Below are positions 8,197 through 60,854 of a stretch of 64,000 nucleotides of DNA, piece by piece (position 1 is the stretch's first letter; each line of letters opens with the position of its first letter). Source of the stretch: Candidatus Gastranaerophilales bacterium (lineage in GTDB: Bacteria; Cyanobacteriota; Vampirovibrionia; Gastranaerophilales; Gastranaerophilaceae); contig CALUWA010000002.1 in assembly GCA_944324365.1 (NCBI GenBank), positions 62,001 through 126,000 on the forward strand. The letters are read 5' to 3'. The notes under the pieces were generated by a model. That model saw only the letters and a list, made by a program, of their open reading frames with translations, made no database searches and was not told where the DNA came from. The translations under genes and the position numbers were made by a program.

Positions 8197-8412
8197 ATGA
8201 TTAAAATTACCCCGAATGTTACCACAAAGATTACTGTACCAGCGCAGCAAAAAGTTCAATATGCATACAATCATGTAAGCAGTGTAGTCAAAAAGAATCA
8301 GGTGCAAGCGGATTTTCGTACAGATAGGATTGATATTTCAGCACCTTCTGAAAAACAAGCAAATGCCGTTATGGAAAAATTAAAAGAACTCGGTATTAAT
8401 TTTATAAAGTAA
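8197..8412 (+). CDS. Small hypothetical protein, 71 residues
   Basis: Real gene signals support this short frame: AAGGAG ten to fifteen bases before the ATG and a perfect hairpin terminator right after the stop. The product is hydrophilic, without signal peptide or membrane helix. The last 30 residues (APSEKQANAVMEKLKELGIN) are predicted helical by eye and could form a helix with an acidic and basic face. The N-terminus MIKITPNVTTKI is similar in style to several orphan proteins of this window that begin with a short beta-type segment, but homology cannot be claimed. Function unknown; monocistronic. Confidence 0.6.
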   Translation: MIKITPNVTTKITVPAQQKVQYAYNHVSSVVKKNQVQADFRTDRIDISAPSEKQANAVMEKLKELGINFIK

Positions 8413-8418
8413 GGCAAA

Positions 8419-8444
8419 AAAAGGAGCTTTTTAAAGCTCCTTTT
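8419..8444. terminator. Bidirectional intrinsic terminator
   Basis: Perfect inverted repeat AAAAGGAGCTTT / AAAGCTCCTTTT with a two-base loop. Both flanks give a run of T on the leaving strand, so it can end transcription of the 71-residue gene (plus) and of panD (minus), whose stop codon lies nine bases beyond it. Confidence 0.85.
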
Positions 8445-8452
8445 CTGTACAT

Positions 8453-8809
8453 CTAATGATTTTGTATAATCTTATTTTTTTCATCTACCATAACTACTGT
8501 CGGGGTATGATGTTCAATATCTTCCGGCGTAAAATATGCGTAAGATATAATTATGACCTTATCTCCCGGTTGAACTTTTCTTGCCGCGGCACCGTTCAGG
8601 CATATGCAGCCGGAGCCAGGTTCTCCTTTTATAACATAGGTTTGGAACCTTTCCCCGTTATTAATATCAAGGATATCAACTTTTTGCCATTCTCTTATTT
8701 TAGCCGCTTTCATTAAGTCTTCATCAACTGTGATTGAACCGACGTAATTTAAATTAGCATCGGTAACAGTAGCTCTGTGTATTTTTGAAAATAAAAATTC
8801 CTGTAACAT
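8453..8809 (-). CDS. panD: Aspartate 1-decarboxylase proenzyme
   Basis: 118 residues, normal length. Makes beta-alanine from aspartate for pantothenate and coenzyme A synthesis. The self-cleavage site is G24-S25 in [10 protein letters not shown], which creates the pyruvoyl group on the new N-terminus. K9 in [10 protein letters not shown], and the GAAAR segment containing the conserved Ala-Ala-Arg, are also present. ATG 8809 has only a weak upstream site. The gene stands between the bidirectional terminator at 8419 and the divergently transcribed or same-strand speD upstream (88-base gap), so it could be read through from speD. No other pantothenate genes are in the window. Confidence 0.95.
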
Positions 8810-8897
8810 TTTCTCTTTACCTCATACAATATGTTATCACAAAAAAATACGACGCCCAATAAAGACCATCGTATTTTTAAGTTTTTTAAAATTATAA

Positions 8898-9350
8898 TTA
8901 GTCTATTGATTCTTGCATAATTTCAAAAGGTTTTTCCATAACCTTCATTGTAGCTTCATCAATAATACCGCGTTTCAGCTCCGTGAAAGTTGCCTTTTTA
9001 GAATTGAATTTTCTTTTCAAAAATTCGTAGGAAACTTTCGGATCGCACTTGTCGCCGCAAGTAAACAAATCAACTGCGGCATAGCCGAGCTCCGGCCAAG
9101 TATGGATAGCAAGATGGCTTTCCGATATAATAACTACACCTGAAACTCCATATGGGTTAAACATATGGAAACATTTTTGTACAATTGTAGCGCCGCATTC
9201 CAATGCTGCATCTACCATATATTTTTCTACTTTATCAAGACTATTTAAAGTGTTGGGGTCGCAATCAAAAAATTCAGCTAGTACGTGTTGTCCCAAATGG
9301 ATTTCTTTTTTCCCGTTTTCGAACGCTGTAAATGGTGAAGTTATTGCCAA
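8898..9350 (-). CDS. speD: S-adenosylmethionine decarboxylase proenzyme
   Basis: 150 residues, class 1B bacterial form. The enzyme self-cleaves and supplies decarboxylated SAM as aminopropyl donor for spermidine. The cleavage site is E77-S78 in SESHLAIHTWPE; H83 and C98 (in DLFTCGD) have the same spacing from the serine as in the Thermotoga maritima enzyme (five and fifteen residues). The start is a TTG at 9350: AAAGGAGG lies eight bases before it, whereas the ATG at 9355 is out of frame and runs into a stop within five codons. Compared with the family core, the N-terminus is extended by about fifteen residues. Confidence 0.93.
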   Translation of the reverse strand: MAITSPFTAFENGKKEIHLGQHVLAEFFDCDPNTLNSLDKVEKYMVDAALECGATIVQKCFHMFNPYGVSGVVIISESHLAIHTWPELGYAAVDLFTCGDKCDPKVSYEFLKRKFNSKKATFTELKRGIIDEATMKVMEKPFEIMQESID

Positions 9351-9601
9351 TTCATGTGCCTCCTTTTATACTTATGTATATTTACCTACCAAAAAAATTG
9401 CTTTCGCTATTACATATTACAATAAAAACCGAAAATTTTGTAAAATTTACACTTAAAAATTTTTTTATTATAAAATTTTCTTTTTTAATATGGTTCAAAT
9501 CCAGTGTTCATACATCATTCAACCGTACTATTTTTATTAAGAATTATTAATATTTTTATTGATAAAACTTTTAAAAATTTTTTTTATCATAAAATGAAAC
9601 T
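9351..9601. other. AT-rich intergenic region between speD and response regulator
   Basis: 251 bases, very AT-rich, with long T and A runs. It must hold the divergent promoters of speD and of the regulator at 9602, but no convincing -35/-10 pair stands out. The only recognisable site is the speD ribosome binding site next to 9351. No hairpin with a T tail and no small gene with a good start was found. Confidence 0.5.
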
Positions 9602-10297
9602 ATGAGTAAAATTTTGGTTATAGATGATGATACGGCGATAAACGAATTAATAAAAGTAAACCTTGAACTTGAAGGACATAAAGTTGTTCAGGCATATGAC
9701 GGGATAAAGGGTTTTGCATTATGTAAGCAGGAGCAGCCTTCTCTTGTTATTCTTGATGTTATGATGCCTGAAGTTGACGGGTTTACGGTTGCCCAAAGAA
9801 TCAGAAAAAATGATGAAACAAAAGATATTCCGATATTAATGCTTACGGCTCTTTCGCAGTTAAATGACAAAGTTAACGGTTTCAATATCGGGGTGGATGA
9901 TTATCTTGTAAAGCCGTTTGAGATGGAAGAATTGAAAGTACGCGTAAGGGCGTTGTTGAAAAGGACAAATCAGATACCGAAATCTGCTTCTACCAGAGAG
10001 CTTTTGACACTTGGCGAGGTCACGCTGCTTCCCGAAACTTATAGTGTAAAAATTAACGATAAGACGGCAAAACTTACACCTATTGAATTTGATATTTTGA
10101 ATCTGCTTTTCCAAAATCATGGGAATATGGTATCTTCCGCAAAACTTTTAAAAGATGTCTGGGGTTATGCGCCTGATGATGATATCGAAACAATAAGAGT
10201 CCACATAAGACACTTGAGAACAAAGCTGGATAAAATTTCGGACGGCAAAAAGTATATCGAAACAATTTACGGCGGCGGATATAAGTTTTGTGTGTAA
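9602..10297 (+). CDS. OmpR/PhoB-family response regulator
   Basis: 231 residues. The receiver domain (1-120) has the acidic pocket DDD at 8-10, phosphoacceptor D52 in LVILDVMMPEVDG, T82 and K104. The C-terminal winged helix (about 135-230) ends in TIRVHIRHLRTKLD and TIYGGGYKF, as usual for the OmpR group. It binds DNA after phosphorylation by a histidine kinase, but no kinase gene is near, so it is an orphan in this window. In cyanobacteria such orphans include RpaB-type regulators; resemblance is general and the assignment is open. The ATG lacks a clear Shine-Dalgarno sequence. Its stop is one base from the end of convergent priA. Confidence 0.9.
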   Translation: MSKILVIDDDTAINELIKVNLELEGHKVVQAYDGIKGFALCKQEQPSLVILDVMMPEVDGFTVAQRIRKNDETKDIPILMLTALSQLNDKVNGFNIGVDDYLVKPFEMEELKVRVRALLKRTNQIPKSASTRELLTLGEVTLLPETYSVKINDKTAKLTPIEFDILNLLFQNHGNMVSSAKLLKDVWGYAPDDDIETIRVHIRHLRTKLDKISDGKKYIETIYGGGYKFCV

Positions 10298-10298
10298 T

Positions 10299-12587
10299 TT
10301 ACAAAATATCCAGCGGATCAACATCTACCGCGAGTTTTACATCTTTTGGCATTGTTATTTTGCTTAAAAAACTCGAAATAAACTGATGTCCTTTTACATC
10401 AAGTTTATTTTTAATAATAATTTGAAAGCGGTAATAACTGTTTATCCTTTCAATTACGCAAGGTGTCGGTCCAAGAACCTCAAGACGTTCCGAAACTCCG
10501 TATTTTTCAATAATTGTACACAGACTCAAGGCAATTTCGGCTGCAGCCTTTTCTGCCCGGAAATTGTTCATGGAACTTATTATTAAACGTACGATTTTAC
10601 TATATGGCGGGTAGTCAAATTCTTCGCGAGTTATTATTTCTTTTTCGTAAAACTCTCTGTAATTCTGGGATTTTGCACTTTCCAGCGCATAAAACTCCGG
10701 GTTGTATGTTTGGAAAAACACACGCCCTGTAAATTCACCTCTTCCTGCACGTCCCGCAACCTGCGTTAAAAGCTGAAATCCTCTTTCCGAAGATCTGAAA
10801 TCAGGGAGGTTAAAGCTTGCATCCGCGGAGATTACACCGACAAGTGTAACGTTAGGATTATCAAGCCCTTTTGCTATCATCTGGGTGCCTACCAGAATAT
10901 CTATATCCCCTTTCTGGAATCGCTCCAAAAGTCTTATGTGTTCACCTTTGCGTACAAGAACATCACTGTCTATTCTCTCAACCTTATTTTCAGGGAAAAG
11001 CTCCTGCACGTATTGTTCAATTTTCTGTGTGCCGGTTCCGCTTATCTTGAGAGCGTCAGAGCCGCATTCCGGGCATGTGTCCGGAAAATATTCTATGTGG
11101 TTGCAATAATGACATTTCAAATGCTTATCTTTTGAATGCCAAATCATTGGAATTGCGCAATTCGGGCATTCAATAACGTGTCCGCAGGCTTGGCATTGCG
11201 TGAATGTCGCAAAACCTCTTCTGTTTATCAGCAAAATAACCTGCTGCTTATTGTCTAACGTTTCCTGAATGGCTGTTTGTAATGGTTTTGAAATAACACT
11301 TTTGTATGCAGCGCGGGAGTGTTCCTGCATATTAATAACCGTTACGGGTGCTATCGGTGCATTTTTGTACCGGTGTTTCATCTCAAAAAGATTTCCGGAA
11401 TTTAGTGCCCTGTAGTAAACCGAAATATCCGGAGTTGCAGAGCCGAGAAGAAGCGGGCAGTTATGAAATTCAGAAAGCTTTTGTGCAACAACTTTTGCAT
11501 CATAACGCGGGGCCGGATTTGTCTGTTTGTATGCTCCTTCGTGTTCTTCATCTATGATAATCAAGCCGATATTTTTAAGCGGCGCAAAGACCGCGGAGCG
11601 TGCTCCGGCAAGGATTTTAATATCATCCCTGTATAACCTTTGCCAAACATCATATCTTTCCCCCTCGGATATGCTGCTGTGCCAAATTGCAACATCACGG
11701 GTTCCGAATTTTTTTGCAAGACGTTTGGTAAGCTGGGAAGCAAGGGCGATTTCCGGCACAAGAAACAGAATATTTTTCCCGGACTTTATACAATCGTCGA
11801 TAAGCTTGAAATACACTTCCGTTTTCCCGGAAGCCGTGACCCCATGCAAAAGCATCGTGTGAGGCGGTATAACTTCATCGTCAGAAGCATTTTTTTTGCG
11901 TTCGATGTAATCTGCTATGGATTTTTTTATCCCTTCGTAAGCTGCTTTTTGTTCTGCCTCAAGCTCATAAAGCGGCTCCGTTGTTTCAATGTTTAAAATA
12001 TCAAGCGGATTTCTGTAAATTTCTTCTTCCGTAATTTTTAAGCAGCCGGCTGCTTCAAGTTTTTTAATAGTGGTTCTTGTTGTTTTCGCCAGACGCTCAA
12101 ATGTTATTAGCGGAGTTTTTCCGGTTTTTTGAAGTAATTCAAGTACGGCAAGCTGACGCTTTGTTGCTCCGTCAAATTTTATAAACTCCACGGCCTGTTC
12201 TGTTTTGGAAGCTTTTTCAATAAGTTTCATCGGAATTGCTGTATTTAAAACGGTTACCAAATCACAGCAATAATAATTTGCAACCCATTCAAGCAGTTTT
12301 AAATAATCAATGGAAAATAAAGGCGTTTCGTCAAGAATTTTGTTTATTTTTTTTGCCTTAATTTCTTCCGGCAGATAGTCTGAAAAACCTACGCAGAAAG
12401 CATTAATTAATCCTTGACGTCCGAAAGGAACCAAAATCGCTTGTCCGATTTTAATTTTATCTTTCATCTCATCAGGGATTAAATAACTGAATGTTTTTAC
12501 ACCGAGTCCTTTTATATTAACAAGAGCCAGGGCGTATTTCGGATAGTTTACGGGAGCAGTATCAAATAGCTTATTCTGATTTATCAT
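10299..12587 (-). CDS. priA: Primosomal replication restart helicase
   Basis: 762 residues. Order: N-terminal 3'-binding domain (about 15-110), a winged-helix linker, helicase with Walker A GVTASGKTE at 249-257 and DEEH box in LIIIDEEHEGAYK near 346, then the zinc region with four cysteine pairs (CQACGH, CPNC, CHYCNH, CPECGS at about 470-515), then helicase motif QVAGRAGRGEF, and a C-terminal domain. It reloads the replicative helicase at stalled forks. The PC4-like gene lies 22 bases upstream on the same strand, and the two are probably cotranscribed. All key motifs are intact. Confidence 0.95.
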   Translation of the reverse strand: MINQNKLFDTAPVNYPKYALALVNIKGLGVKTFSYLIPDEMKDKIKIGQAILVPFGRQGLINAFCVGFSDYLPEEIKAKKINKILDETPLFSIDYLKLLEWVANYYCCDLVTVLNTAIPMKLIEKASKTEQAVEFIKFDGATKRQLAVLELLQKTGKTPLITFERLAKTTRTTIKKLEAAGCLKITEEEIYRNPLDILNIETTEPLYELEAEQKAAYEGIKKSIADYIERKKNASDDEVIPPHTMLLHGVTASGKTEVYFKLIDDCIKSGKNILFLVPEIALASQLTKRLAKKFGTRDVAIWHSSISEGERYDVWQRLYRDDIKILAGARSAVFAPLKNIGLIIIDEEHEGAYKQTNPAPRYDAKVVAQKLSEFHNCPLLLGSATPDISVYYRALNSGNLFEMKHRYKNAPIAPVTVINMQEHSRAAYKSVISKPLQTAIQETLDNKQQVILLINRRGFATFTQCQACGHVIECPNCAIPMIWHSKDKHLKCHYCNHIEYFPDTCPECGSDALKISGTGTQKIEQYVQELFPENKVERIDSDVLVRKGEHIRLLERFQKGDIDILVGTQMIAKGLDNPNVTLVGVISADASFNLPDFRSSERGFQLLTQVAGRAGRGEFTGRVFFQTYNPEFYALESAKSQNYREFYEKEIITREEFDYPPYSKIVRLIISSMNNFRAEKAAAEIALSLCTIIEKYGVSERLEVLGPTPCVIERINSYYRFQIIIKNKLDVKGHQFISSFLSKITMPKDVKLAVDVDPLDIL

Positions 12588-14450: not shown

Positions 14451-15129
14451 ATGTTAAAAAGTAATTGAGTTATTACAAGCTCCCTCCCCTACTTTGAGAG
14501 AGTACTTATAATAAGACATTTTTTGTCATTGTTGTGCATATCAAAATAATTAGTTACATAATTCATGTTAGTGCCTGAGGCACAACACTATAACGCGTCT
14601 TGGATTATTGGCGGCTCGACCGGCTCAACGCAGCTCTCGCCCGGACGAGTTTCGCTGCGCTCACTCTTGCCAAAATCCGCTTCGCTGTGTAAAACGCACA
14701 ATTAGTAGTATTTATTGTTCATTTTCTCTTTTTTGTTGCGAAGCAAAGCGGATTGTGAGCGTAGAGTGAAGAGCGTTGCCGAAGGGCAATGCTCTGGAAC
14801 TCGTAATACGCGAACAACCAAGCAGAGAAAGAAGTGAACCTTTCACGACCAAATGAAAGAGTGAAGCCATTTTGCACGTTTCGAGCAGAGCTCTCAACTG
14901 CAAAAGAAGGCAAGAAAGAGAAAACGCGCAAACGTTCCCTGCATTTCGCTGACGCTCAATGCCTAAATATTATTTGAGCTTTCAGCTCAAATTCTTTCAA
15001 GGCTCACTATCGCACTTCGTGCACGTTCGCCTGACTCAATTCCATCAGGCGACAACCCGAATAATCCGATAGTAGCGAAGCAATCCAGGAAATAAGATCG
15101 CGGACAAACCTTAGGTTTTCCGCGATGAC
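14451..15129. repeat. Repeat island 1, upstream part
   Basis: About 680 bases without a convincing gene. It holds a GTGCCTGAGGCAC palindrome near 14572 (also near 21808 and 35519), the hairpin element at 14717-14839, and a stretch GGCGACAACCCGAATAATCC near 15049 that returns in reverse near 60107. The short open frames on both strands have no ribosome binding sites, and the repeats account for them. Composition is richer in GC than in the flanking genes. No transposase is present. Confidence 0.7.
14717..14839 (+). repeat. GTTCA/TGAAC hairpin element, long form, copy 1
   Basis: Starts GTTCATTTTCTCTTTTTT and ends AGAGAAAGAAGTGAAC, so the ends are imperfect inverted repeats. The middle holds an insert of about 76 bases that begins GCGGATTGTGAGCG and ends ACGCGAACAACC. 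The same long form is at 35113-35238; short forms without the insert are at 21913-21960 and 59788-59832. Confidence 0.85.
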
Positions 15130-15195
15130 ATGTGGCTGGTGGAAGGTTCCAAAATATGTCATCGCGCACTTGTTGCGCGATCTATGGATTGCTTC
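15077..15195 (+). repeat. 118-base module bounded by GAAGCAATCCA, copy 1
   Basis: Begins GAAGCAATCCA and ends with its complement TGGATTGCTTC. Inside lie two smaller palindromic parts, CGCGGA...TCCGCG and GTCATCGCGC...GCGCGATC. Near-identical copies are at 35566-35682 and 59979-60096. The copy overlaps the start of the long open frame at 15130. Confidence 0.88.
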
Positions 15196-16044
15196 ACTAA
15201 CGCTCGCAATGACGAGAAATATTTGCTTAGTACCCATCTACCAAAAATCCGAGCTCGCAATGACGGGAATCGTCATTCTGAGGGCGGAGCCCGAAGAATC
15301 TTCTTTAATAAGAGATCCTTCGCTATCGCTCAGCTCTGCATACAGGCTCACACGTCCTCACTTCGTTGCGGCGGTTCGCTTTGTAAGAATGACAAAAAGA
15401 AAGCAGCATTCACGCTTGCGGAAGTGCTTATTACTTTAGGCGTTATCGGTATAGTTGCAGCCATGACACTTCCGACATTAATCGCTAACTACCAGAAAAA
15501 AGTTGTAGAAACAAAGGTAAAAACATTTTATTCAAAGTTGAACCAGGCATATTGGATGTCATATGCTTTTAACGGAGATACAGTTGATTGGGTCGAAGAA
15601 TATAAATATTACAGCTATGAAGAGATGGTTGACTGGCTTGAAAAATACATTTTCCCTTATATGAAACATATTGATGTAAGAGAATTTACAGATAGTAACG
15701 GACAAGTATTTGCTTTAGTAAGAATTCCGGACGGCGGATTATATGCGTTTTCGATAAATAAAGACGGGCAGGATGTTATTTATTTTGCAAATGGTAAATT
15801 AGAAGTAAATCCAAGGAATAAATTTCAGTTTCAGTTTTCCAAAAGGATTGAGGTTGCACTTGGGGCAGATAAAAAGCAAAGTATGAATTTTATAGACCCA
15901 TATATAGTGAACTGGGATGAGGAACGTGAATCTTTATTTACAAACGGGACCTGGGGCTGCAGGAAAGGCTGCACAAACTGTGCTTACTGTACAAAATTAA
16001 TCCAGCTCAACGGCTGGGAAATACCTGACGATTTCCCTTGGTAA
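15130..16044 (+). CDS. Prepilin-like protein fused in frame to repeat DNA (prepilin copy 1)
   Basis: The convincing protein begins at about base 15400: KKKAAFTLAEVLITLG is a class III (prepilin peptidase) leader junction followed by the hydrophobic pilin helix. After it come about 210 residues, with a C-terminal segment holding GCRKGCTNCAYCTKLIQ. The frame is open back to ATG 15130 with no stop, but residues 1-89 of that frame are translated repeat DNA and no ATG, GTG or TTG lies close to the leader. An ATG at 15389 is one frame off (five A follow; six would put it in frame). The product is probably a pseudopilin or minor pilin exported by a type II or type IV pilus machine. It is a clear paralogue of the gene ending at 60854. 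The true start is uncertain. Confidence 0.68.
   Translation: MWLVEGSKICHRALVARSMDCFTNARNDEKYLLSTHLPKIRARNDGNRHSEGGARRIFFNKRSFAIAQLCIQAHTSSLRCGGSLCKNDKKKAAFTLAEVLITLGVIGIVAAMTLPTLIANYQKKVVETKVKTFYSKLNQAYWMSYAFNGDTVDWVEEYKYYSYEEMVDWLEKYIFPYMKHIDVREFTDSNGQVFALVRIPDGGLYAFSINKDGQDVIYFANGKLEVNPRNKFQFQFSKRIEVALGADKKQSMNFIDPYIVNWDEERESLFTNGTWGCRKGCTNCAYCTKLIQLNGWEIPDDFPW
15271..15393 (+). repeat. CGTCATTCTGAG module, copy 1
   Basis: Starts CGTCATTCTGAGGGC and runs to AAGAATGAC immediately before the prepilin leader codons. A near-identical copy (few substitutions over 123 bases) is at 35711-35833. The two are read in the same frame into the prepilin, unlike the 118-base module. Confidence 0.85.
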
Positions 16045-17393: not shown

Positions 17394-17564
17394 TTAATTG
17401 TATTTTTAACAATCAATATTATAAAATTAAAAAACAAAATAGCAATGTTTTGTAATATTTATGTAAACAGACTTATATTTATGTAAAAATTTCTTAATAT
17501 AGGATGGTGTTTTAGCAAAAATTCATCTTCACAATGTTTATAAGTTTAGAAGTAAGGAGTAATT

Positions 17565-20500
17565 GTGAAAGTAAATAGTGTAAATAACAGGTTGAGTGTA
17601 CAAAAAGCCCCGTCATTTAAAGGTTTTGACGTTATAAAAGATGATTATGGCGACAGAGTTTATAACTTTAGTTATCCGTATGACTCAAAGAGATACGAAT
17701 GTTATCTTCAATTGGTATCTCTTGTGCCTGACGGCAACAAAGATTATAAAATCGGGAAAACTTTACACAATTACGAAGAAGATTCTGATCTTATAAAACT
17801 GAACCCGGGCGATAACATAATTGACATTGGTTATGCATACAGACTTGCAGAAAAGCAGCCGTTCGGTTATCAATTCCAGTTAAAACCAATCGGCTATCCT
17901 GATGCGGTACCGATGTATAAGGTTGATTCCGGCGATATTCTTGATAAACGAACTCAAAACGAAGGACATAATATTTATAATATAGTTGTGCCAAGCGGTG
18001 CTTCCTCAAGTGATGCCGGTGCTGCAATATTGATTGGCACGGATAATTATGATGTCAGATGGGTATATGATAAAAATCATAATATTGTCCCTAACCCTAA
18101 GGCTCAGTTAGGTTTGGATACAACAAAAGATTTTGCAAACGAAATAGGAGGTACTGCTGCAGGTTTGGAGAGAGCTTTGGACAGCGGCGAATTAGACAGA
18201 TATTCTAAAATCTTTATTCTCCCGTTTGCAACCGGTGACAGAACAAGCAGACATTTTTACTGGCTTGAAAGCGGGTTCCAGCTTTCTAATGCGATAGATA
18301 ATATGCAGACATATACAAGATTACAGCAGAAATTATTTTCTAAAGGGAAAAATCTTGTATCAGATGCCGCAATATCATCAGAAGGTTTGACCGGTATTCA
18401 CTTCCAGAGTATTTTGCATTATGGTTTGGCCGATAATGTATTTGCTGATTGGTTTAAAGCTGACAGCCTTAAAGATATGACAGCAAAACTCGGTGTTTTT
18501 GGCAAGAAAGATGTATTTATCCGTCATAAACTTATAAATGCACCGTTTATTCCTGTTCAGGACGAACATGGAAAAGTTCATCTGAAACCTTGTAAATATA
18601 ATTCGAAAATGCCGACTTATATACAGGTTTATAATGTAAAAAGTGTTTCGGATGAACAGATGAAAGACGGCTCGCCGATGATTGAAGCTTACGGAAAACC
18701 GGCGACCGGGGATGATGTTTTGTTTGACGGAACCCATAATGATACGGTTGTAACTTATGCATTTCCAATAGATCCGGATGAATACAGAAGAAATGTAAAA
18801 TTATTCAATGAATATAATCGTAAGCGTCCTATTGATCAATATGTTTCTATTAATTCCTACGAAGCTACGAGAATGCTTACTAAATTCAAAAACTTTGAAT
18901 ATGATAACAAGTTTGAAGGCGGTTTCTATACTTGGGATGCTAACGTGGATATGGTTAAATACCACTACACACTTTCAAATTCCGATGTAGAAGATGTTAT
19001 GAATCTTCCGATAGAAGAAAGAAAAGCAAGGTTCGCACAACTTGAGCAGAAAAACTGCGAGGTTCAGGATTACGCAATATCTTCTGTAAGATACTGGACG
19101 CGCAAAACTAATCAGATTTTAAATCTTTACACTGCACAGGCTCTTAAAAATATTGACGAAAAAAATCCTGACAGTGCGCTGAAAATGATAAAAAATAGAA
19201 TTTCCGATAAAACTCTGCCGGATAAATTGTCTTATGATTTAAACAAAGATATAGTAGAAAATGTTCAAAAGGGTTTATACACTTTGCACGGTATGGATTC
19301 CGTTGAAAACATGCACGATACGGTTTTGGAAGGTTTGATGGACTTCCCTCTTGAAAGTGCAGAGTTGGGTAAAGATATTTTATCATTATTCAGTACCCCT
19401 TATATTACCAAAAGGGCCACAAAACCGGATCAAATCGGTGCTACCAGAATGGAAATGCTCGTTCAGGGCAATCCTCATTTGACAAAGGATTACGAACATA
19501 TTTATAACAGAATGACCCATTTGTATTGCGATACTATGTATGATTTCGCAAAAGAAGTTCTTACCGATGTAAACAGAAAACTTCCGAAGAATTTGAAGAT
19601 GAATTATTATGATGATACATCTGCTTACGGAAAATATGTACTGCCTATTTTAACCCAGGAAATAGCAAAATTTGCGGTTATGAAAGGGCTTGTACCTGAT
19701 TTGAAATATAAAATAGACCCGCAAAACGGCGGAATTATTTACGATTATGATACTTCAAGAAAATCTTCGCTTAAGAGTCTGGGGATAATAAGCATTTCCC
19801 AGAAACAAGATGCGGATGCTCTGGTATCAAAATTAAATGCCGGTATCAAAAAAATCAGCGATGAAGATAAAGCAAAACTTGTTGATGCTTTGTATAAGAT
19901 GATTGAGGGGACGAACCTTACAAGTTTTAAAATGGCGGAAATGATTGTAGACAGAGCAAAAGGCGGAATTGATTTCAGATTTGATGCTGCAAAAGATGTA
20001 TCTGATATGGATTCATTAAGAAATCATCATGATACCTTTGAAGATAATTGGGAACAGGTTATCGATTTCTGGAGAAGAGCTGCTGATGCTATATATAAAG
20101 AAAACCCGAATTCTTACACTGTTGCTGAAATTACCGACGAAATCGATTTGCATAGGCTTGGCGATGGGCAAAATTCGGATAGATTTGTTTATAAAAAAAT
20201 AGAACATAATGCACCTTATTATTATCAAAGTGATATAAACAGAAAATTCCTGCGTGAAACCGGAATTACGTCTGTTGCTAATTATAATTATTTCTTTACT
20301 GATATTGCGGGGGTTTTCGGAAAACTCGGAGAAAACGGTATGGACAGAGGTACAGATCAGGGATACCGTGTCCACAATATTTTGAAAAAAGGCCAGGGCG
20401 GTGAAGAATTTTTATATTCCGGACCTTATGAATCAGTTGTAAAATCTTACACCTTCGTAGATAACCATGATAAACCGAGAATTTTACATGTTTTATCAAT

Positions 20501-21779
20501 GGATATGGGATTGTTCTATGCTGATTTGAATGATATTTCAAACTTTGATTACAGACGTCGTGCATATGCGGTTTTGCATCCTGACGTAGTAAGTCCTGAG
20601 GATGTAAGTGCTGATACAGTTAACGGAACAGATTTTTCATATATAAGCGCTAAAGCTATAGCTCGCGGTGAATCTATTCGTTCAGCATTTTACAGAGCGA
20701 TGGATGAAATGCTTAAAATGAAAGATAATGAAGGAAAAGCCTATATTACAACTAAACAACGAGATGCTATTTTCGATAATGTTAAAGATGTTGTTGCAAG
20801 GTTTGCAGCAGGCAGATTGGGCGGCAGTGCTTTTGAAGCCGATAATTTCGGGGTGGAGGAATTCCAAAAAACTATTGATATTGTTATGAGAAGAGTTGCT
20901 CCGGTAAGCGGCTTGTCAGATGAAGCTGTTGATATTTTGAAAGCAACTGTTTTTGAAAAAGCTTTGGATCCTGCACTTTCAAATGCTTTGGCTTTGGATA
21001 AATTCCTTATAAATTTGCCTGGTATTCCAACTACTTATGCCGGTGATGATTATGGGGCAACAGGTTACGAAACAAAAACCAAAAATATTTATCTGAAAAA
21101 CCGTGCGGCTGTTCATCATGATTGGGTAGACAAATACCCATTCATTAAACGTCATAAAGAAAATGCGGATGCTGTAAAACTTATGCGTTCGCGTCCGGTT
21201 TTACATGCATTGAATAACGGTGCGCCGTTCCTTCTTCCGCTGCAATACGGAAACGGAAAGCAAGTATCAGCTATTTTGCGTTACGCTCCGGATGGCAACA
21301 CTGTAATTTCATTATTCAATGTTGCAGGAACAACCCACACTTATGACCAGTATTCGGATGCAAGTAAATCCCCTGTATATCTTGATAACAGCCGGATAAA
21401 TTTGAGCAGTGAAGGTGATTTTATAGGATTGGCCGGCGGTTTGACTCCGGGAATGGAATTTATAAATGCAAACGATGAAAATGATAAATATTATGTTTAC
21501 CAAGATGGCGGTCAGGATAATTATTACCTTGCACACAAGGATAAATCAGATCCGATTTTACTAAAAGATAATACCTTAACTTTATATCATGCTTCTGATG
21601 AGCTGAAAAAGAAAGATAAGGAATTCTTAAACAAGGTTAAAAAGGCCAAGAAAGAGAATGTTTCATTCTGCGGAAACAGACGCGTACTATACAATCCTCA
21701 GTATAATATTTCAACTTCAGTATATACACAAAAAGCTGATACAAAAGTTGGTACAAAATTAGCTTTAATTAGTAAATAG
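17565..21779 (+). CDS. Very large GH13-like glycoside hydrolase
   Basis: 1404 residues from GTG 17565 (AAGGAG six bases before). It is identified as alpha-amylase family by the middle: GGIDFRFDAAKD (candidate nucleophile D807), YTVAEITDEI (acid/base E855), FVDNHDKPR (D969), and further on LPGIPTTYAGDDYG followed by YLKNRAAVHHDW, all in the usual GH13 order. Region I (DxxxNH) is not obvious. About 800 residues precede the catalytic core, much longer than in typical amylases, and there is no Sec signal peptide. N-terminal APSFKGF and C-terminal NVSFCGNRR resemble short motifs of other orphans here. Likely acts on alpha-glucans, possibly intracellular; exact substrate unknown. Monocistronic. Confidence 0.72.
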   Translation: MKVNSVNNRLSVQKAPSFKGFDVIKDDYGDRVYNFSYPYDSKRYECYLQLVSLVPDGNKDYKIGKTLHNYEEDSDLIKLNPGDNIIDIGYAYRLAEKQPFGYQFQLKPIGYPDAVPMYKVDSGDILDKRTQNEGHNIYNIVVPSGASSSDAGAAILIGTDNYDVRWVYDKNHNIVPNPKAQLGLDTTKDFANEIGGTAAGLERALDSGELDRYSKIFILPFATGDRTSRHFYWLESGFQLSNAIDNMQTYTRLQQKLFSKGKNLVSDAAISSEGLTGIHFQSILHYGLADNVFADWFKADSLKDMTAKLGVFGKKDVFIRHKLINAPFIPVQDEHGKVHLKPCKYNSKMPTYIQVYNVKSVSDEQMKDGSPMIEAYGKPATGDDVLFDGTHNDTVVTYAFPIDPDEYRRNVKLFNEYNRKRPIDQYVSINSYEATRMLTKFKNFEYDNKFEGGFYTWDANVDMVKYHYTLSNSDVEDVMNLPIEERKARFAQLEQKNCEVQDYAISSVRYWTRKTNQILNLYTAQALKNIDEKNPDSALKMIKNRISDKTLPDKLSYDLNKDIVENVQKGLYTLHGMDSVENMHDTVLEGLMDFPLESAELGKDILSLFSTPYITKRATKPDQIGATRMEMLVQGNPHLTKDYEHIYNRMTHLYCDTMYDFAKEVLTDVNRKLPKNLKMNYYDDTSAYGKYVLPILTQEIAKFAVMKGLVPDLKYKIDPQNGGIIYDYDTSRKSSLKSLGIISISQKQDADALVSKLNAGIKKISDEDKAKLVDALYKMIEGTNLTSFKMAEMIVDRAKGGIDFRFDAAKDVSDMDSLRNHHDTFEDNWEQVIDFWRRAADAIYKENPNSYTVAEITDEIDLHRLGDGQNSDRFVYKKIEHNAPYYYQSDINRKFLRETGITSVANYNYFFTDIAGVFGKLGENGMDRGTDQGYRVHNILKKGQGGEEFLYSGPYESVVKSYTFVDNHDKPRILHVLSMDMGLFYADLNDISNFDYRRRAYAVLHPDVVSPEDVSADTVNGTDFSYISAKAIARGESIRSAFYRAMDEMLKMKDNEGKAYITTKQRDAIFDNVKDVVARFAAGRLGGSAFEADNFGVEEFQKTIDIVMRRVAPVSGLSDEAVDILKATVFEKALDPALSNALALDKFLINLPGIPTTYAGDDYGATGYETKTKNIYLKNRAAVHHDWVDKYPFIKRHKENADAVKLMRSRPVLHALNNGAPFLLPLQYGNGKQVSAILRYAPDGNTVISLFNVAGTTHTYDQYSDASKSPVYLDNSRINLSSEGDFIGLAGGLTPGMEFINANDENDKYYVYQDGGQDNYYLAHKDKSDPILLKDNTLTLYHASDELKKKDKEFLNKVKKAKKENVSFCGNRRVLYNPQYNISTSVYTQKADTKVGTKLALISK

Positions 21780-24197: not shown

Positions 24198-24341
24198 ATG
24201 GTTGATCTGAAAATAAAGGAAATATCAACTTTCACAGAAAACAATGTCAATAAAACCAAAATGATTATTTCCGAAGATAATATTGATAAAGAAATAATTC
24301 TGGAAGGCGACGGTTCTATTAAAACTGCTGTTGAGGTATAG
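24198..24341 (+). CDS. Small acidic hypothetical protein, 47 residues
   Basis: Frame of 47 codons with GGAG seven bases before the ATG and a near-consensus promoter at 24141-24169. The product has no membrane helix or signal peptide and no recognised motif. It is rich in Ile, Glu, Asp and Lys. Its last 23 bases overlap the 3' end of the convergent exported-protein gene at 24319, so their transcripts are complementary at the ends. Function unknown; a regulatory or toxin-antitoxin role is only a possibility. Confidence 0.6.
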   Translation: MVDLKIKEISTFTENNVNKTKMIISEDNIDKEIILEGDGSIKTAVEV

Positions 24342-24969
24342 AAACAGGTGTTTCTGCCGGTTCTGTGTATTCGTAGTTCGGAGCATTTTCGCTGTCTTCT
24401 TCATCGTTAGGTGTTTTGAATTTGAGCCAGAATATGTCACCTTCAAGGATATTTAACTCGTTTCCGGTTTCAACATAAGAAAACGGAGTATTTTCATATA
24501 CATTTACGACAGAAGATTTGAATCTGTTGCCCTCTTCGTTTTTAATGGCGCCCTCTACAGCATTAACTCCCAGGCTTAAGCCCTTCACAAAATAACTGCC
24601 GACTGTAAGTGAAGCAGATTTCGCCAGCTCTTTTTTGTCCATGTGCATTGAGTATTTGCCTTTCAAATTCTCATTAAATGTATGCATTGCACCGTCTTTG
24701 CTGACATAAGATTCCGGGATAACTGAAAACGATGCATTTCTTTTTAATCTTTTTGGAGAAATTACATCAGACGTTTTTCCGTAAATAATATCACCTTTGT
24801 AGAGAGTTAAAGTATCAGACAATTCACAATCTTCCAGTAATTCTACACTTATTGTGTCTGCGGGATTTTCTGTTGAAAACGGGGTTAAAGCTTTAACTTT
24901 TACTGAAACCGCCAAAACCGGAGATGCTATTAACGTTAACAAGCATCCAAACAATATTTTTTTCAGCAT
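24319..24969 (-). CDS. Exported protein, paralogue of the gene at 24986
   Basis: 216 residues. Signal peptide: MLKKI, a hydrophobic stretch, and a cleavage site after SPVLA near residue 20. The mature part starts VKVKALTPFSTENPADTISV and continues ELSDTLTLYKGDIIYGK; the same pattern is in the upstream gene, so both belong to one family. A short hydrophobic patch lies around residues 130-145, and the C-terminus is acidic and Pro-rich. By shape this resembles a periplasmic or surface beta-rich domain, perhaps of the TrbI or SLBB-like adaptor kind, but no family was recognised. Overlaps the small gene at 24198 tail to tail. Confidence 0.65.
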   Translation of the reverse strand: MLKKILFGCLLTLIASPVLAVSVKVKALTPFSTENPADTISVELLEDCELSDTLTLYKGDIIYGKTSDVISPKRLKRNASFSVIPESYVSKDGAMHTFNENLKGKYSMHMDKKELAKSASLTVGSYFVKGLSLGVNAVEGAIKNEEGNRFKSSVVNVYENTPFSYVETGNELNILEGDIFWLKFKTPNDEEDSENAPNYEYTEPAETPVSIPQQQF

Positions 24970-24985: not shown

Positions 24986-25609
24986 TTATCTCAAAAACTC
25001 GCCGTTACGATTTCTTAGAATATTAACAAGCGGCATTGCAGGATTATATCTGTTTGTTGCATCCATTGTGCCTAAATCGGTTACCGGAAGTCCAGGCAAC
25101 CCTTTAGAGAATGGTTTCTGAGATTCAACTGTTGCCGGCTCCATTGTATTTATAACAATTGTGGAGGCAGAATCTGTCACATTTTGCGGCATTTCTGTTT
25201 GTTTAGGAATTACATCTTTAAAATTCAAAACAAACATCTGGCCGGGGTTAATATTTACAGCTGTTCCGGCAGCTACCGGGATAACCTGGCTGTTATTTAC
25301 GTAACCTGCAAAAGTTCCGTATGTCTGCGGCTCAAATTGGCCTTCTTCATTGTGAATATTTATGAAACTATACGGAACGAAAGCCAAAATGCCGTTTTGC
25401 AGAACGAGTTTTCCTTTTACGGTAAAGCCCTCAAATAAAACAATATCATCTGTAACTTGTATGTTACTGCCGATTTTTACGGCTATTTCAGCCGGCGGAT
25501 TTGTGTTATTAAACGGTGTCAGTGCCGTAACCGGAACTGTTTTAGCCATTACATTTTGTCCAAATCCTAATGCAAAAATCGCTGCCAAACTTATTACAAA
25601 CTTTTTCAT
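24986..25609 (-). CDS. Exported protein, paralogue of the gene at 24319
   Basis: 207 residues. Signal peptide: MKKFVISLAAIFALGFGQ, probable cleavage after NVMA. The mature part starts VPVTALTPFNNTNPPAEIAV and goes on to DDIVLFEGFTVKGKLVL, aligning with the next gene over about 45 residues (V-x-V-x-ALTPF, then D-x2-x-L-x2-G-x4-GK). The C-terminal third is rich in Pro, Asn and Thr and looks like a flexible tail. It is 16 bases upstream of its paralogue, so the two are cotranscribed. Function unknown; cell-envelope location is the only inference supported. Confidence 0.65.
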   Translation of the reverse strand: MKKFVISLAAIFALGFGQNVMAKTVPVTALTPFNNTNPPAEIAVKIGSNIQVTDDIVLFEGFTVKGKLVLQNGILAFVPYSFINIHNEEGQFEPQTYGTFAGYVNNSQVIPVAAGTAVNINPGQMFVLNFKDVIPKQTEMPQNVTDSASTIVINTMEPATVESQKPFSKGLPGLPVTDLGTMDATNRYNPAMPLVNILRNRNGEFLR

Positions 25610-35238: not shown

Positions 35239-35307
35239 ATAAATGGAACCTTTGTGTATCAAAAAAGGTACCGATAACATGGGTTATGTAAGGGGGCTTT
35301 GCCCCCC

Positions 35308-35336
35308 TTGCAAAATTTGTGAACATCGTTTATACT
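35308..35336 (+). promoter_or_regulatory. Sigma-70-type promoter before G10 frame
   Basis: TTGCAA at 35308-35313 and TATACT at 35331-35336, spacer exactly 17 bases. It is followed by AAAGGAGG at 35343-35350 and an ATG at 35359, giving a compact complete start signal. Confidence 0.7.
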
Positions 35337-35358
35337 AAGGAAAAAGGAGGATATAAAC

Positions 35359-35412
35359 ATGCAAAAGTCAAGTATAGCGCGGAAATACCGGGGGGGGGGT
35401 ATCTACATCTAA
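35359..35412 (+). other. 17-codon open frame ending after the G10 tract
   Basis: ATG with AAAGGAGG eight bases before it. Reads MQKSSIARKYRGGGIYI then stop. The first eleven codons (ending IARKYR) are reminiscent of the start of clamp-loader DnaX proteins, so the segment might be a captured 5' end of such a gene. If the tract were nine G the frame would continue to 36640 through the prepilin. As it stands it encodes only 17 residues. Confidence 0.5.
35390..35399 (+). repeat. G10 homopolymer tract
   Basis: Ten G in a row, the longest such run seen here and out of keeping with the AT-rich surroundings. It lies ten codons inside a frame with promoter and ribosome binding site. Such tracts are the classical substrate for slipped-strand phase variation but are also common sites of sequencing error. 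Confidence 0.75.
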
Positions 35413-35428
35413 GTCAGGACAAGGGTTT

Positions 35429-36640
35429 TTGCCCATTTGTCATTGCGGCGGTTCTGGTGTTTTAAGGGATTTAGTCCGAAATATTTATAAAGCAGTCATT
35501 CAGAGGTGCGAAGCCCGAGTGCCTGAGGCACATCAACATGACGCTGCGCTGTGTGTAATGCGACAATCAATCCAGGGAATAAGATCGCGGACAAACCTTT
35601 GGTTTTCCGCGATGACATGTGGCTGGTGGAATGTGTCAAAATATGTCATCGCGCACTTGTTGCGCGATCTATGGATTGCTTCGTCGCAAGCTCCTCGCAA
35701 TGACGGAAAACGTCATTCTGAGGGCATAGCCCGAAGAATCTCTTTAAATAAGAGATCCTTCGCTGTCGCTCAGCTCTGCATACAGGCTCACTCGTCCTCA
35801 CTTCGTTGCGGCGGTTCGCTTTGTAAGGATGACAAAGTATATGGCAATGACGGGAAAAAGAGATTCTTCGGATTTCATCCTCAGAATGACATAGAAAAGA
35901 AAGCAGCATTCACGCTTGCGGAAGTGCTTATAACTTTAGGCATAATTGGTGTTGTTGCGGCAATGACGCTTCCGACACTGATTGAAAATAATCGCAAAGT
36001 CGAATTGACATCAAGGGCAAAGAAAGCTTATTCAGAGATTTTACAGGCAGTTAAGATGTATGAGGCGCAGAATGAAACTCCGGGAAATATTCAGGCATTG
36101 TTTGAGGCAAAAAACGGTACTGCTGATAACAGGCAGTTAGCGGAAGATTTTTCAAAATATTTTAACAATCCGAAGGTATGCAAAAATAGGACTGATAATG
36201 GCTGTGGTTCATATTTTTATTCGATAAAATATTCTAAACCGAAAGCTAATTCGGAAGGTACTCTTATTGATAATTCAAATAACAGTCCAAAAATAATCTT
36301 GCCGGATGAAACTGTTCTGGGTGTCAGCCAAAATGCAAAATGTAATGAATATAAGACCGGGCAGTCCACAGATGAATACGGGCGCCCGAAATATGATGCA
36401 GATGGTAATCCTGTTATGACAAGTTGGTATACGGCTTGTGCGTATATTGTTTTTGATACAAACGGTCCGAAAAGACCAAATACATTCGGACTTGATGCTT
36501 TTCGTTTAAAAGTATCTCCGGAAAAAGTTTGGATAGATGCCAGTGATACTTTTATGGGTGCAGCAAGTTTGTCAAGCCTGTTGACCAACGGGGAGTTGAT
36601 ATTCACCGACTATACTGTTGGCGGAAGTTTAGATTTCTAA
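35429..36640 (+). CDS. Prepilin-like protein fused in frame to repeat DNA (prepilin copy 2)
   Basis: The believable protein starts with EKKAAFTLAEVLITLG (F161 of the open frame, base 35909), a class III leader junction and pilin helix, followed by about 230 residues rich in Asn, Lys and Asp with cysteines in KVCKNRTDNGCGSYF. The frame upstream is open for 160 residues but is translated repeat DNA; the TTG at 35429 has no good site. No ATG lies near the leader, and the ATG in the junction AATGACATAG meets a stop two codons later. The frame is open back to 35378, just before the G10 tract. The body is not closely alike prepilin copies 1 and 3 outside the leader. Ends in front of terminator T2. 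Confidence 0.65.
   Translation: MPICHCGGSGVLRDLVRNIYKAVIQRCEARVPEAHQHDAALCVMRQSIQGIRSRTNLWFSAMTCGWWNVSKYVIAHLLRDLWIASSQAPRNDGKRHSEGIARRISLNKRSFAVAQLCIQAHSSSLRCGGSLCKDDKVYGNDGKKRFFGFHPQNDIEKKAAFTLAEVLITLGIIGVVAAMTLPTLIENNRKVELTSRAKKAYSEILQAVKMYEAQNETPGNIQALFEAKNGTADNRQLAEDFSKYFNNPKVCKNRTDNGCGSYFYSIKYSKPKANSEGTLIDNSNNSPKIILPDETVLGVSQNAKCNEYKTGQSTDEYGRPKYDADGNPVMTSWYTACAYIVFDTNGPKRPNTFGLDAFRLKVSPEKVWIDASDTFMGAASLSSLLTNGELIFTDYTVGGSLDF
35566..35682 (+). repeat. 118-base module bounded by GAAGCAATCCA, copy 2
   Basis: Matches 15077-15195 and 59979-60096 nearly throughout; the left end is slightly degenerate (CAATCAATCCA). It is read in a different frame from copies 1 and 3. Confidence 0.88.
35711..35833 (+). 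repeat. CGTCATTCTGAG module, copy 2
   Basis: Near-identical to 15271-15393. It is followed by about 55 more bases that end CCTCAGAATGACA, an inverted copy of the module start, before the prepilin leader. Confidence 0.85.
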
Positions 36641-59625: not shown

Positions 59626-60056
59626 AATATTCCTAACATATTCATCATATCAGATATAAATAATATCGGGCTATTGTTTATTAAGTTTTTGTAATATTCT
59701 TGGAAAACTTTTTATAATCAGCCATAACTTACATAACCCATGTTATGTGCATCTATCGACCACATACATAAGTTATGTAATTTATTTGTTCACTTTTTCT
59801 TTTTTGTTGCGAGGAAAAAAGAAAAAGTGAACCGAAAAAGAAAAACACGCAAAAGATTGTTGCGCTGCCTATGGCATCGCTTCGGCCGAATGGACGTACG
59901 TTCCGTTTGCTTCGCAAACGAAATCGTTAAGCGCTGCTAAGGACAACGCAGCGCATTTCCCGTCATTGCGAGTGAAGCGAAGCAATCCAGGAAAAAGATC
60001 GCGGACAAACCTTAGGTTTTCCGCGATGACATGCGGCTGGTGGAAGGTTCCAAAAT
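59626..60056. repeat. Repeat island 4, upstream part
   Basis: About 430 bases. From about 59735 to 59787 it repeats 21962-22008 in reverse complement; the short hairpin element is at 59788-59832; and the 118-base module begins at 59979. No gene with a good start. Confidence 0.7.
59788..59832 (+). repeat. GTTCA/TGAAC hairpin element, short form, copy 4
   Basis: GTTCACTTTTTCTTTTTT, loop GTTGCGAG, GAAAAAAGAAAAAGTGAAC: nearly perfect 18-base stem. The most regular of the four copies. Confidence 0.9.
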
Positions 60057-60096
60057 ATGTCATCGCGCACTTGTTGCGCGATCTATGGATTGCTTC
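59979..60096 (+). repeat. 118-base module bounded by GAAGCAATCCA, copy 3
   Basis: Same ends and interior as 15077-15195. Followed by CATCGGATTATTCGGGTTGT near 60107, which is the reverse complement of a stretch near 15049. Confidence 0.88.
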
Positions 60097-60854
60097 GTCG
60101 TGTTGCATCGGATTATTCGGGTTGTCGCCGGAGTAACGTCCGGCTCCAACTTACGGGCTGGGGCACTTCGTGCCATGGCGCCCTACCGAAAATCCGAGCT
60201 CGCAATGACAAAAAGAAAGCGGCGTTTACGCTTGCGGAAGTGCTGATTACCCTTGGCATAATTGGCATAGTTGCAGCAATGACAATGCCGATGCTGATTG
60301 CCAAGTACCAAAAGCTTGTTCTAGAAACGAAATTGCAGGTATTTTATGCACAGATAAACGATGCATTCAGGCGGGCGCATGCGGATTATGACGGTACCTT
60401 TGACGACTGGGTTATAAAAGATAAAAACTACAGCTACAATGAAATAAAGGCATTCCTGGAAACCTATTTACTTCCTTATGTAAAATATACAAAGATAGAA
60501 CGGTGTAATTATGATAATGGACAGGTATTTGCCTGTGTATATTTGGTAAACGGAACTCTGATGCGTATGGCTATAGATGGTAATGGCGGAGATATAGTTT
60601 TCCATCCAAATACCAAAAATGAATGTAATCCACGGGAAAAATTTGCATTTCAGATGGTAAAAAAGAAAACACAAGGCAGCAAAGCATATAATAGTGTTGA
60701 ATTTATAGAGCCTTATGTTTTGGATTGGAATGGTAACCGAGAATCCTTAAAGACAGGGCAATTTGGATGTTACAAAGGTTGTGATTTTTGTGGCTATTGC
60801 ACGAAATTAATTCAAATAAATGGCTGGAAAATACCTGACGATTATCCTTGGTAA
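60057..60854 (+). CDS. Prepilin-like protein fused in frame to repeat DNA (prepilin copy 3)
   Basis: The leader DKKKAAFTLAEVLITLG is at residue 51-66 of the open frame from ATG 60057 (F57 at base 60225). Residues 1-50 are translated repeat sequence. The ATG at 60206 (TCGCAATGACA) is one frame off, as in copy 1. The body aligns with prepilin 1 along its full length (ETKLQVFYAQINDAF, NYSYNEIKAFLETYLLPYVK, then GCYKGCDFCGYCTKLIQ and GWKIPDDYPW at the end), with four cysteines in the same places. Probably a pseudopilin-type surface protein. The true start codon is uncertain. Ends nine bases from the convergent acetyltransferase gene. Confidence 0.68.
   Translation: MSSRTCCAIYGLLRRVASDYSGCRRSNVRLQLTGWGTSCHGALPKIRARNDKKKAAFTLAEVLITLGIIGIVAAMTMPMLIAKYQKLVLETKLQVFYAQINDAFRRAHADYDGTFDDWVIKDKNYSYNEIKAFLETYLLPYVKYTKIERCNYDNGQVFACVYLVNGTLMRMAIDGNGGDIVFHPNTKNECNPREKFAFQMVKKKTQGSKAYNSVEFIEPYVLDWNGNRESLKTGQFGCYKGCDFCGYCTKLIQINGWKIPDDYPW

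Follow-up and report, generated by a model that had tools for sequence, protein, structure and literature searches.

An oversized GH13-type protein of Gastranaerophilales with a long stretch inside its predicted barrel and a recurrent linkage to genes for probable membrane proteins

Glycoside hydrolase family 13 (GH13) is recognised by an Asp-Glu-Asp catalytic triad, four to seven conserved sequence regions, a (β/α)8 barrel and the retaining cleavage of α-glycosidic bonds, and by a 2024 count CAZy held 47 GH13 subfamilies, to which two more were added (PMC11239784; this and the other papers are cited for the passages concerned). Its neopullulanase-type group, made up of GH13_20 and GH13_21, bears the region V signature MPKLN (PMC9781549). 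Here we analyse a 64,000-nucleotide window (the whole stretch of DNA under study) from a Candidatus Gastranaerophilales bacterium, in which one gene encodes a protein of 1404 residues, hereafter the giant, that appears to be related to this group. Neopullulanase-type enzymes possess an N-terminal CBM34-type domain, and the neopullulanase, cyclomaltodextrinase and maltogenic amylase structures 2z1k, 1sma, 1ea9 and 1j0h are presumably all of GH13_20 type. A second point of comparison is the eukaryotic glycogen debranching enzyme, whose glucanotransferase domain (hDGE_amylase) contains a large stretch between strands β3 and β4.

On balance, we consider it probable that the giant is a catalytically competent, cytosolic, α-retaining enzyme of GH13 type that acts on α-glucan together with a second, membrane-linked GH13 protein (GH13b) and two probable membrane proteins (MemA and MemB). 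The recurrent linkage of the four genes suggests an undescribed membrane-linked system for α-glucan-like sugars. A near-universal protein of this lineage, catalytically intact as judged by its sequence, escapes the standard family models despite its GH13 type; it would widen the range of GH13 architectures by some 455 extra residues between β3 and β4. Three partner genes with poor annotation come into view with it, and through them a membrane-linked carbohydrate system that can be put to the test, in organisms known physiologically from little more than their genomes.

The GH13 regions and the extra stretches

Searched as a single sequence, the window protein obtained only a chance-level match in Pfam (E 0.079; no Pfam model claims the protein) and nothing up to E 1 in NCBIfam or among the PDB sequences; in the genome search it scored 11.7 bits against PF00128 (Alpha-amylase), below the 22-bit cut-off, which a relative from a second order of the same class (genome G409, family f5) passes with 22.9 bits. 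The relationship emerges from an alignment (A1) in which the window protein is joined by 55 homologues sharing 25-76% identity with it, 56 sequences in all. At a threshold of E 1 the A1 profile retrieved 190 PDB sequences, among which neopullulanase, maltogenic amylase and cyclomaltodextrinase rank first (whole-sequence E values of 3.3e-22 for 2z1k, 5e-22 for 1sma and 2.5e-21 for 1ea9). Its best stretch, positions 194-301, holds region I (i-Evalue 1.6e-14 for 1sma), and lesser ones fall at regions III and VII. Aligned by hhalign with a template of 13 ordinary GH13 proteins from the same phylum, the giant matched in three ordered blocks: residues 155-303 with template positions 102-241 (E 3.4e-18), 803-981 with 287-400 (E 3e-9) and 1138-1250 with 400-499 (E 3.3e-6). 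As an independent check, the G409 relative alone, again as a single sequence, retrieved the same enzymes (1ea9, E 3.7e-8, its residues 147-275).

In the hhalign alignment the Asp/Glu/Asp triad corresponds to D807, E855 and D969, presumably on β4, β5 and β7. An earlier sequence-only reading had named these three residues as candidates; they are in place, as is the stretch GIPTTYAGDDYG of the 1404-residue open reading frame (ORF), and all three are kept throughout A1 (56/56). Judged by sequence, five conserved regions are present (I, II, III, IV and VII, by profile methods) and perhaps a sixth (region V, by eye only), and these matches suggest a predicted (β/α)8 barrel of GH13 type. Region I, which the sequence-only reading had not found obvious, is located at D267 by the A1 profile, by hhalign and by the single class-level relative. 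That reading had also described an N-terminal part of about 800 residues; only about 185 of these precede the barrel, and the rest are its first portion and an in-barrel stretch of about 500 residues.

This last stretch occupies a place where the hhalign template has about 46 residues, giving an excess of about 455 over ordinary GH13 proteins between regions I and II. Across a class-wide alignment of 66 rows (A1, one sequence of family f3 and nine of the second order), the distance between the two regions is 467-624 in every sequence, versus 85-88 in those 12 of the 13 references that the pattern captured. Searched with a profile of the 300-800 stretch (56 sequences), PDB yielded nothing below E 0.8 and Pfam nothing consistent. 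One piece within it, residues 492-529, was aligned by hhalign with E 0.0014 and a probability of only 17%, and runs into the region II of the template; its likeness to helix α3 hints at an insert composed of a domain B part (to about residue 490) and a second part (about 530-795) ahead of β4. The candidate region V contains W457, invariant in 66/66, and has the family consensus WDANxDIAKLN.

At the N terminus, AlphaFold2 modelled residues 16-190 as a β-sandwich (mean pLDDT 63; about 65-89 over the first ~100 residues). Foldseek returned nothing for this model at E <= 0.001, VIA-align placed pullulanase 3fax first (Z 6.1) in a tie with unrelated immunoglobulin-type folds (cytokine-receptor domains), and a profile of residues 20-190 had a best PDB E value of 1.4 and no consistent Pfam match. 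No polymer-binding module was recognised by Pfam in the giant. In agreement with the reported lack of a signal peptide, none of the 56 homologues has a hydrophobic segment reaching a Kyte-Doolittle mean of 1.6 within the first 80 residues. No tandem repeats were found in the gene, and an Rfam search of the window gave no match.

The suggestion of a new subfamily, perhaps with an inserted domain, has gained support: the triad and regions are there, Pfam and NCBIfam offer no match, the insert has no sequence relative in Pfam or PDB, and the profile searches did not turn up a full-length match to a known subfamily of the same architecture in Pfam, NCBIfam or PDB. By its sequence the giant is thus a GH13 variant new with respect to Pfam and NCBIfam; an unpublished CAZy assignment may exist. 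Neither the protein nor its locus was named in the open-licence full texts searched, among them passages stating that Gastranaerophilales can convert starch or glycogen via glycolysis (PMC4040986, PMC3787301) and may store glycogen (PMC5877343).

Distribution and partner genes

The giant is near-universal in its own taxonomic family (f1), with a match in 176 of 191 genomes. These matches, together with the invariance of R805, D807, E855 and D969 in A1, show that it is not a chance frame. Also invariant in A1 (56/56) are, among others, F18, D267, W457, D462, A808, K810, D811 and N967. A phylum-wide draw yielded profile matches in 313 of 386 genomes, the strong ones (E about 1e-88 or lower) being confined to the window's order (f1, f2 and f3); the f4 and f6 genomes in the draw had none (0/8 and 0/1). 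Thirteen weaker matches were inspected: twelve genomes had ordinary GH13 enzymes, aligned mainly at profile positions ~137-301, and the thirteenth, G409, had a 1379-residue frame with three matching segments, spaced just as widely as in the giant. The order to which G409 belongs comprises f5, f43 and f44, and 12 of its 18 genomes match the giant (9/10, 3/4 and 0/4, respectively), all 12 through a long frame of 1310-1512 residues. An assembly or frame artefact joining two genes has practically no chance of explaining such a protein, since the same full-length frame occurs in independent genomes of two orders and its region I-II spacing is wide in 66/66; nothing was found in its favour. The giant was also considered as a mobile or plasmid gene, a candidate rejected for want of a plasmid match or a viral-contig relative.

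Several lineages bring the giant together with the same partners. MemA, MemB, GH13b and the giant are colinear in both f3 genomes (L143, L144) and in two deep f1 loci seen in wider views (L147 and L148, extending L058 and L054); in all four deep f1 loci (L052, L054, L057 and L058) the giant follows GH13b and the long protein MemB. In f5 the giant diverges from MemA and a natural MemB::GH13b fusion in three genomes (G409, G457, G456); in G461 it diverges from MemA, MemB and GH13b as separate genes. MemB was found in 5/5 tested genomes with the giant versus 2/12 without it. Frames of 1005-1071 residues behind weak second-order matches were considered as further fusions and discarded, as they match neither MemB nor GH13b; they resemble what we take to be malto-oligosyltrehalose synthases. 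These observations, computed directly from the genomes, make it probable that the giant belongs to a new gene module, whose function can be proposed by inference.

GH13b resembles the giant in being a divergent GH13 protein without a signal peptide, with an N-terminal F-x-G motif and a shared locus in several lineages. It differs in its normal size, in scoring above the Pfam Alpha-amylase cut-off and in showing no BLASTP similarity to the giant, for which reason their linkage is not a recent duplication. In the G409 fusion a basic SKTSRRRK follows a hydrophobic stretch and immediately precedes the GH13 part, which by the positive-inside rule would place GH13b in the cytosol. Two further GH13 proteins of the window's own genome (G000:C33 in L059 and G000:C5 in L062) have signal-peptide-like starts; one is TreS-like (TIGR02456, E 6e-104, below the cut-off) and the other is a secreted relative of GH13b.

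Several observations weigh against a dedicated four-gene system. GH13b adjoins the giant in only 4 of 57 own-family loci. The own genome carries MemA-MemB-GH13b as an apparent operon on another contig (L096), apart from the giant, and G045 and G052 have these three genes without it. The hydrophobic stretches of MemA and MemB are modest, the own-genome MemB having none over the cut-off. As to the enzyme itself, regions I and II of the family lack their customary histidines. The model of residues 20-1219 (three input sequences) was poor, with a mean pLDDT of 41.8 and a pTM of 0.29, so that the barrel rests on sequence profiles; the model of the N-terminal β-sandwich, made with as few sequences, gave no firm fold match. 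Finally, the linked locus and GT5-type glycogen synthase occur independently: G406, G409, G457 and G461 (loci L144, L131, L166 and L171) have the former and no GT5 match at E <= 1e-20, and G011 and G015 (strong GT5 matches) as well as 7/8 f4 genomes have the latter and no giant. In the f2 genome MemA-MemB-GH13b is present, and the 19 kb of sequence read around it contains no giant; the giant is not adjacent to the partner genes in G455 or in three f43 genomes, and neither is the second G456 copy.

As a separate observation, several unrelated proteins of the lineage (the giant, GH13b, a helicase-like protein and small proteins) carry close to their N termini a motif of the approximate form [VIPR][SNT]F-x-G, which the giant repeats towards its C terminus. 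The N-terminal copy of the giant is conserved class-wide (F18 in 65/66 rows, G20 in 62/66). Within residues 10-29, F-x-G occurs in four of 273 own-genome ORFs, with ~0.66 expected; one of the four is the giant and another a kinase-like chance match. A genome-wide N-terminal tag is a lead that these sequences offer.

Mode of action and substrate

By the rules of the family (PMC11239784), the triad predicts a retaining double displacement, in which D807 would act as nucleophile, E855 as acid/base and D969 as stabiliser of the transition state. The ~455 extra residues on the domain B/β4 side and the ~155 before β8 probably roof over the active site on a large scale and provide a surface to which partners or a polymer could bind. 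At position 272 (region I) the family has N in 48/66 rows and S in 17/66, and at position 811 (region II) D in 65/66. Typical amylases have His at both positions, so the -1 and +1 subsites of the giant should differ from theirs.

These replaced histidines could also speak for a non-enzymatic GH13-like scaffold or sensor, comparable to the rBAT/4F2hc heavy chains, as could a second giant copy in G456 (L172:2655-6665), which reads S, Q, N, N and L at D267, R805, D807, E855 and D969 and, having lost the whole triad, is probably inactive. Such a role is very unlikely for the family at large, in which the five residues are intact in 65/66 rows, that copy being the sole exception.

For the giant as an enzyme, the shared locus in several lineages and the GH13b-MemB fusion in three genomes suggest that it would work with GH13b, MemA and MemB, possibly in a physical complex. 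The lack of a signal peptide and the basic residues ahead of the fused GH13b point to a cytosolic, membrane-side placement of the system. The most likely role would be cleavage or rearrangement of α-glucan, by hydrolysis or transglycosylation, at the inner face of the cytoplasmic membrane, and an α-glucan is a plausible substrate.

Another possibility is an ordinary enzyme of storage-glycogen or starch breakdown (of amylase, debranching or branching type) that is merely large, its linkage to membrane genes being incidental. The own genome indeed carries glycogen synthase-type (GT5), phosphorylase-type, GH57 (3) and GH77 (2) genes, members of Gastranaerophilus have glycogen-storage potential (PMC5877343), and most own-family loci (38/57) place the giant beside a divergent ahcY rather than sugar genes. 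We nevertheless regard this as unlikely, because the four linked-locus genomes named above have no clear glycogen synthase, the giant is missing from some genomes in which that enzyme is strongly matched, and the same linkage, with fusions, recurs across two orders. It follows from the first two points that GlgA-made glycogen is not the giant's only purpose. An alternative of still lower probability is the assembly of an envelope glycan or glycolipid, in which the two GH13 proteins would transfer or trim α-glucosyl units on a membrane carrier held by MemA/MemB. The tethering of GH13b to MemB by fusion, the independence of the giant from GT5 and the want of a Pfam-recognised polymer-binding module would suit it; in the regions read, though, no glycosyltransferase or flippase gene recurs beside the locus, and GH13 enzymes act mostly on α-glucans. 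An extended form of our favoured α-glucan reading, about as doubtful as the storage explanation, makes the four genes an inner-membrane-tethered two-GH13 machine that builds or remodels an α-linked glucan or glucolipid independently of classical glycogen synthase, with the ~450-residue insert as a new domain holding substrate or partner, class-wide in these non-photosynthetic relatives of cyanobacteria.

Table 1. Features of the giant gene and related loci (window coordinates unless a locus is named).
Feature	Position	Strand	Basis
Shine-Dalgarno-like AAGGAG	17554..17559	+	read from sequence; 5 bases upstream of GTG start
Giant GH13-type gene	17565..21779	+	1404 codons uninterrupted, GTG start, stop included
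N-terminal motif PSFKGF (residues 16-21)	17610..17627	+	alignments
N-terminal β-sandwich domain (~residues 20-185)	17622..18119	+	AlphaFold2 model
First part of predicted GH13 barrel, β1-β3 (~residues 187-303)	18123..18473	+	profile search, hhalign
GH13 region I, VSDAAISSEG, D267	18357..18386	+	profile search, hhalign, alignments
Inserted stretch between β3 and β4 (~residues 304-799)	18474..19961	+	hhalign, spacing counts
Candidate region V, WDANVDMVKYH (residues 457-467)	18933..18965	+	MPKLN-type likeness by eye
CEVQDYAISSVRYWTRKTN (residues 498-516), resembling helix α3 of neopullulanase-type enzymes	19056..19112	+	hhalign piece 492-529
GH13 region II, GIDFRFDAAKD, R805, putative nucleophile D807	19965..19997	+	hhalign, alignments
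GH13 region III, putative acid/base E855	20115..20138	+	profile search, hhalign, alignments
GH13 region IV, FVDNHD, D969	20454..20471	+	hhalign, alignments
Second extra stretch, regions IV-VII (~residues 982-1137)	20508..20975	+	hhalign, ~157 residues vs none in template
GH13 region VII, GIPTTYAGDDY	21021..21053	+	profile search, hhalign
C-terminal domain (~residues 1215-1345)	21207..21599	+	start aligns with GH13 C-terminal part to 1250; rest inferred
Second F-x-G motif near C terminus, VSFCG (residues 1366-1370)	21660..21674	+	family consensus FxGxxxxYNPQYN
GH13b of own genome (G000:C15)	L096:5729-7480		
MemB::GH13b natural fusions, second order	L131:9820-12912, L166:9000-12248, L167:9229-12189		
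F-x-G motif proteins	window 17610-17627, 21660-21674; L096:5729-7480, 8231-10579; L142:10582-12321; L143:1-437; L171:9880-10710		

Elsewhere in the window, an interspersed DNA repeat family occurs in both orientations (15050-15480, 35300-35836 and 59950-60291), and pieces of it are found in all 12 further own-genome stretches (L084-L095). Two of the window copies form in-frame extensions ahead of prepilin-like genes, for which reason the ORFs 15130-16044 and 60057-60854 probably start too early. Two adjacent genes (24319-24969 and 24986-25609) encode proteins of ~210 residues each that begin with signal-peptide-like segments and have the motif ALTPF[SN]xxNP in common; relatives of this pair are found in the neighbourhood of further giant-family genes (L002, L003).

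Comparison with known systems

Domain B is about 80-90 residues long in GH13_38 and about 30-40 in GH13_48 (PMC11239784). The insert of the giant lies at the same place, after β3, but is of about 500 residues, with an α3-like stretch midway and more residues beyond it. Large size and a wide gap between regions I and II are found in the eukaryotic glycogen debranching enzyme, a cytosolic GH13 protein, and are common to the giant; the window protein nevertheless has no Pfam match to hDGE_amylase, to which only GH13b and its secreted paralogue match, and weakly.

Neopullulanase-type enzymes are the best matches of the giant's profile, with β1-β3 and region I followed in order by regions III, IV and VII, and a β-sandwich is likewise predicted ahead of the giant's barrel. 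The two differ in size (1404 residues versus about 475-590), and the short stretch between regions I and II, a usual rather than a published defining feature of the group, has no counterpart in the giant (467-624 versus 85-88). The giant also lacks the N/H pair of their region I, and its D811 stands where, we presume, TAKA-amylase has His. In region V, aligned by eye, the MPKLN of the neopullulanase-type group is answered by IAKLN in the consensus of the giant family and by MVKYH in the window protein.

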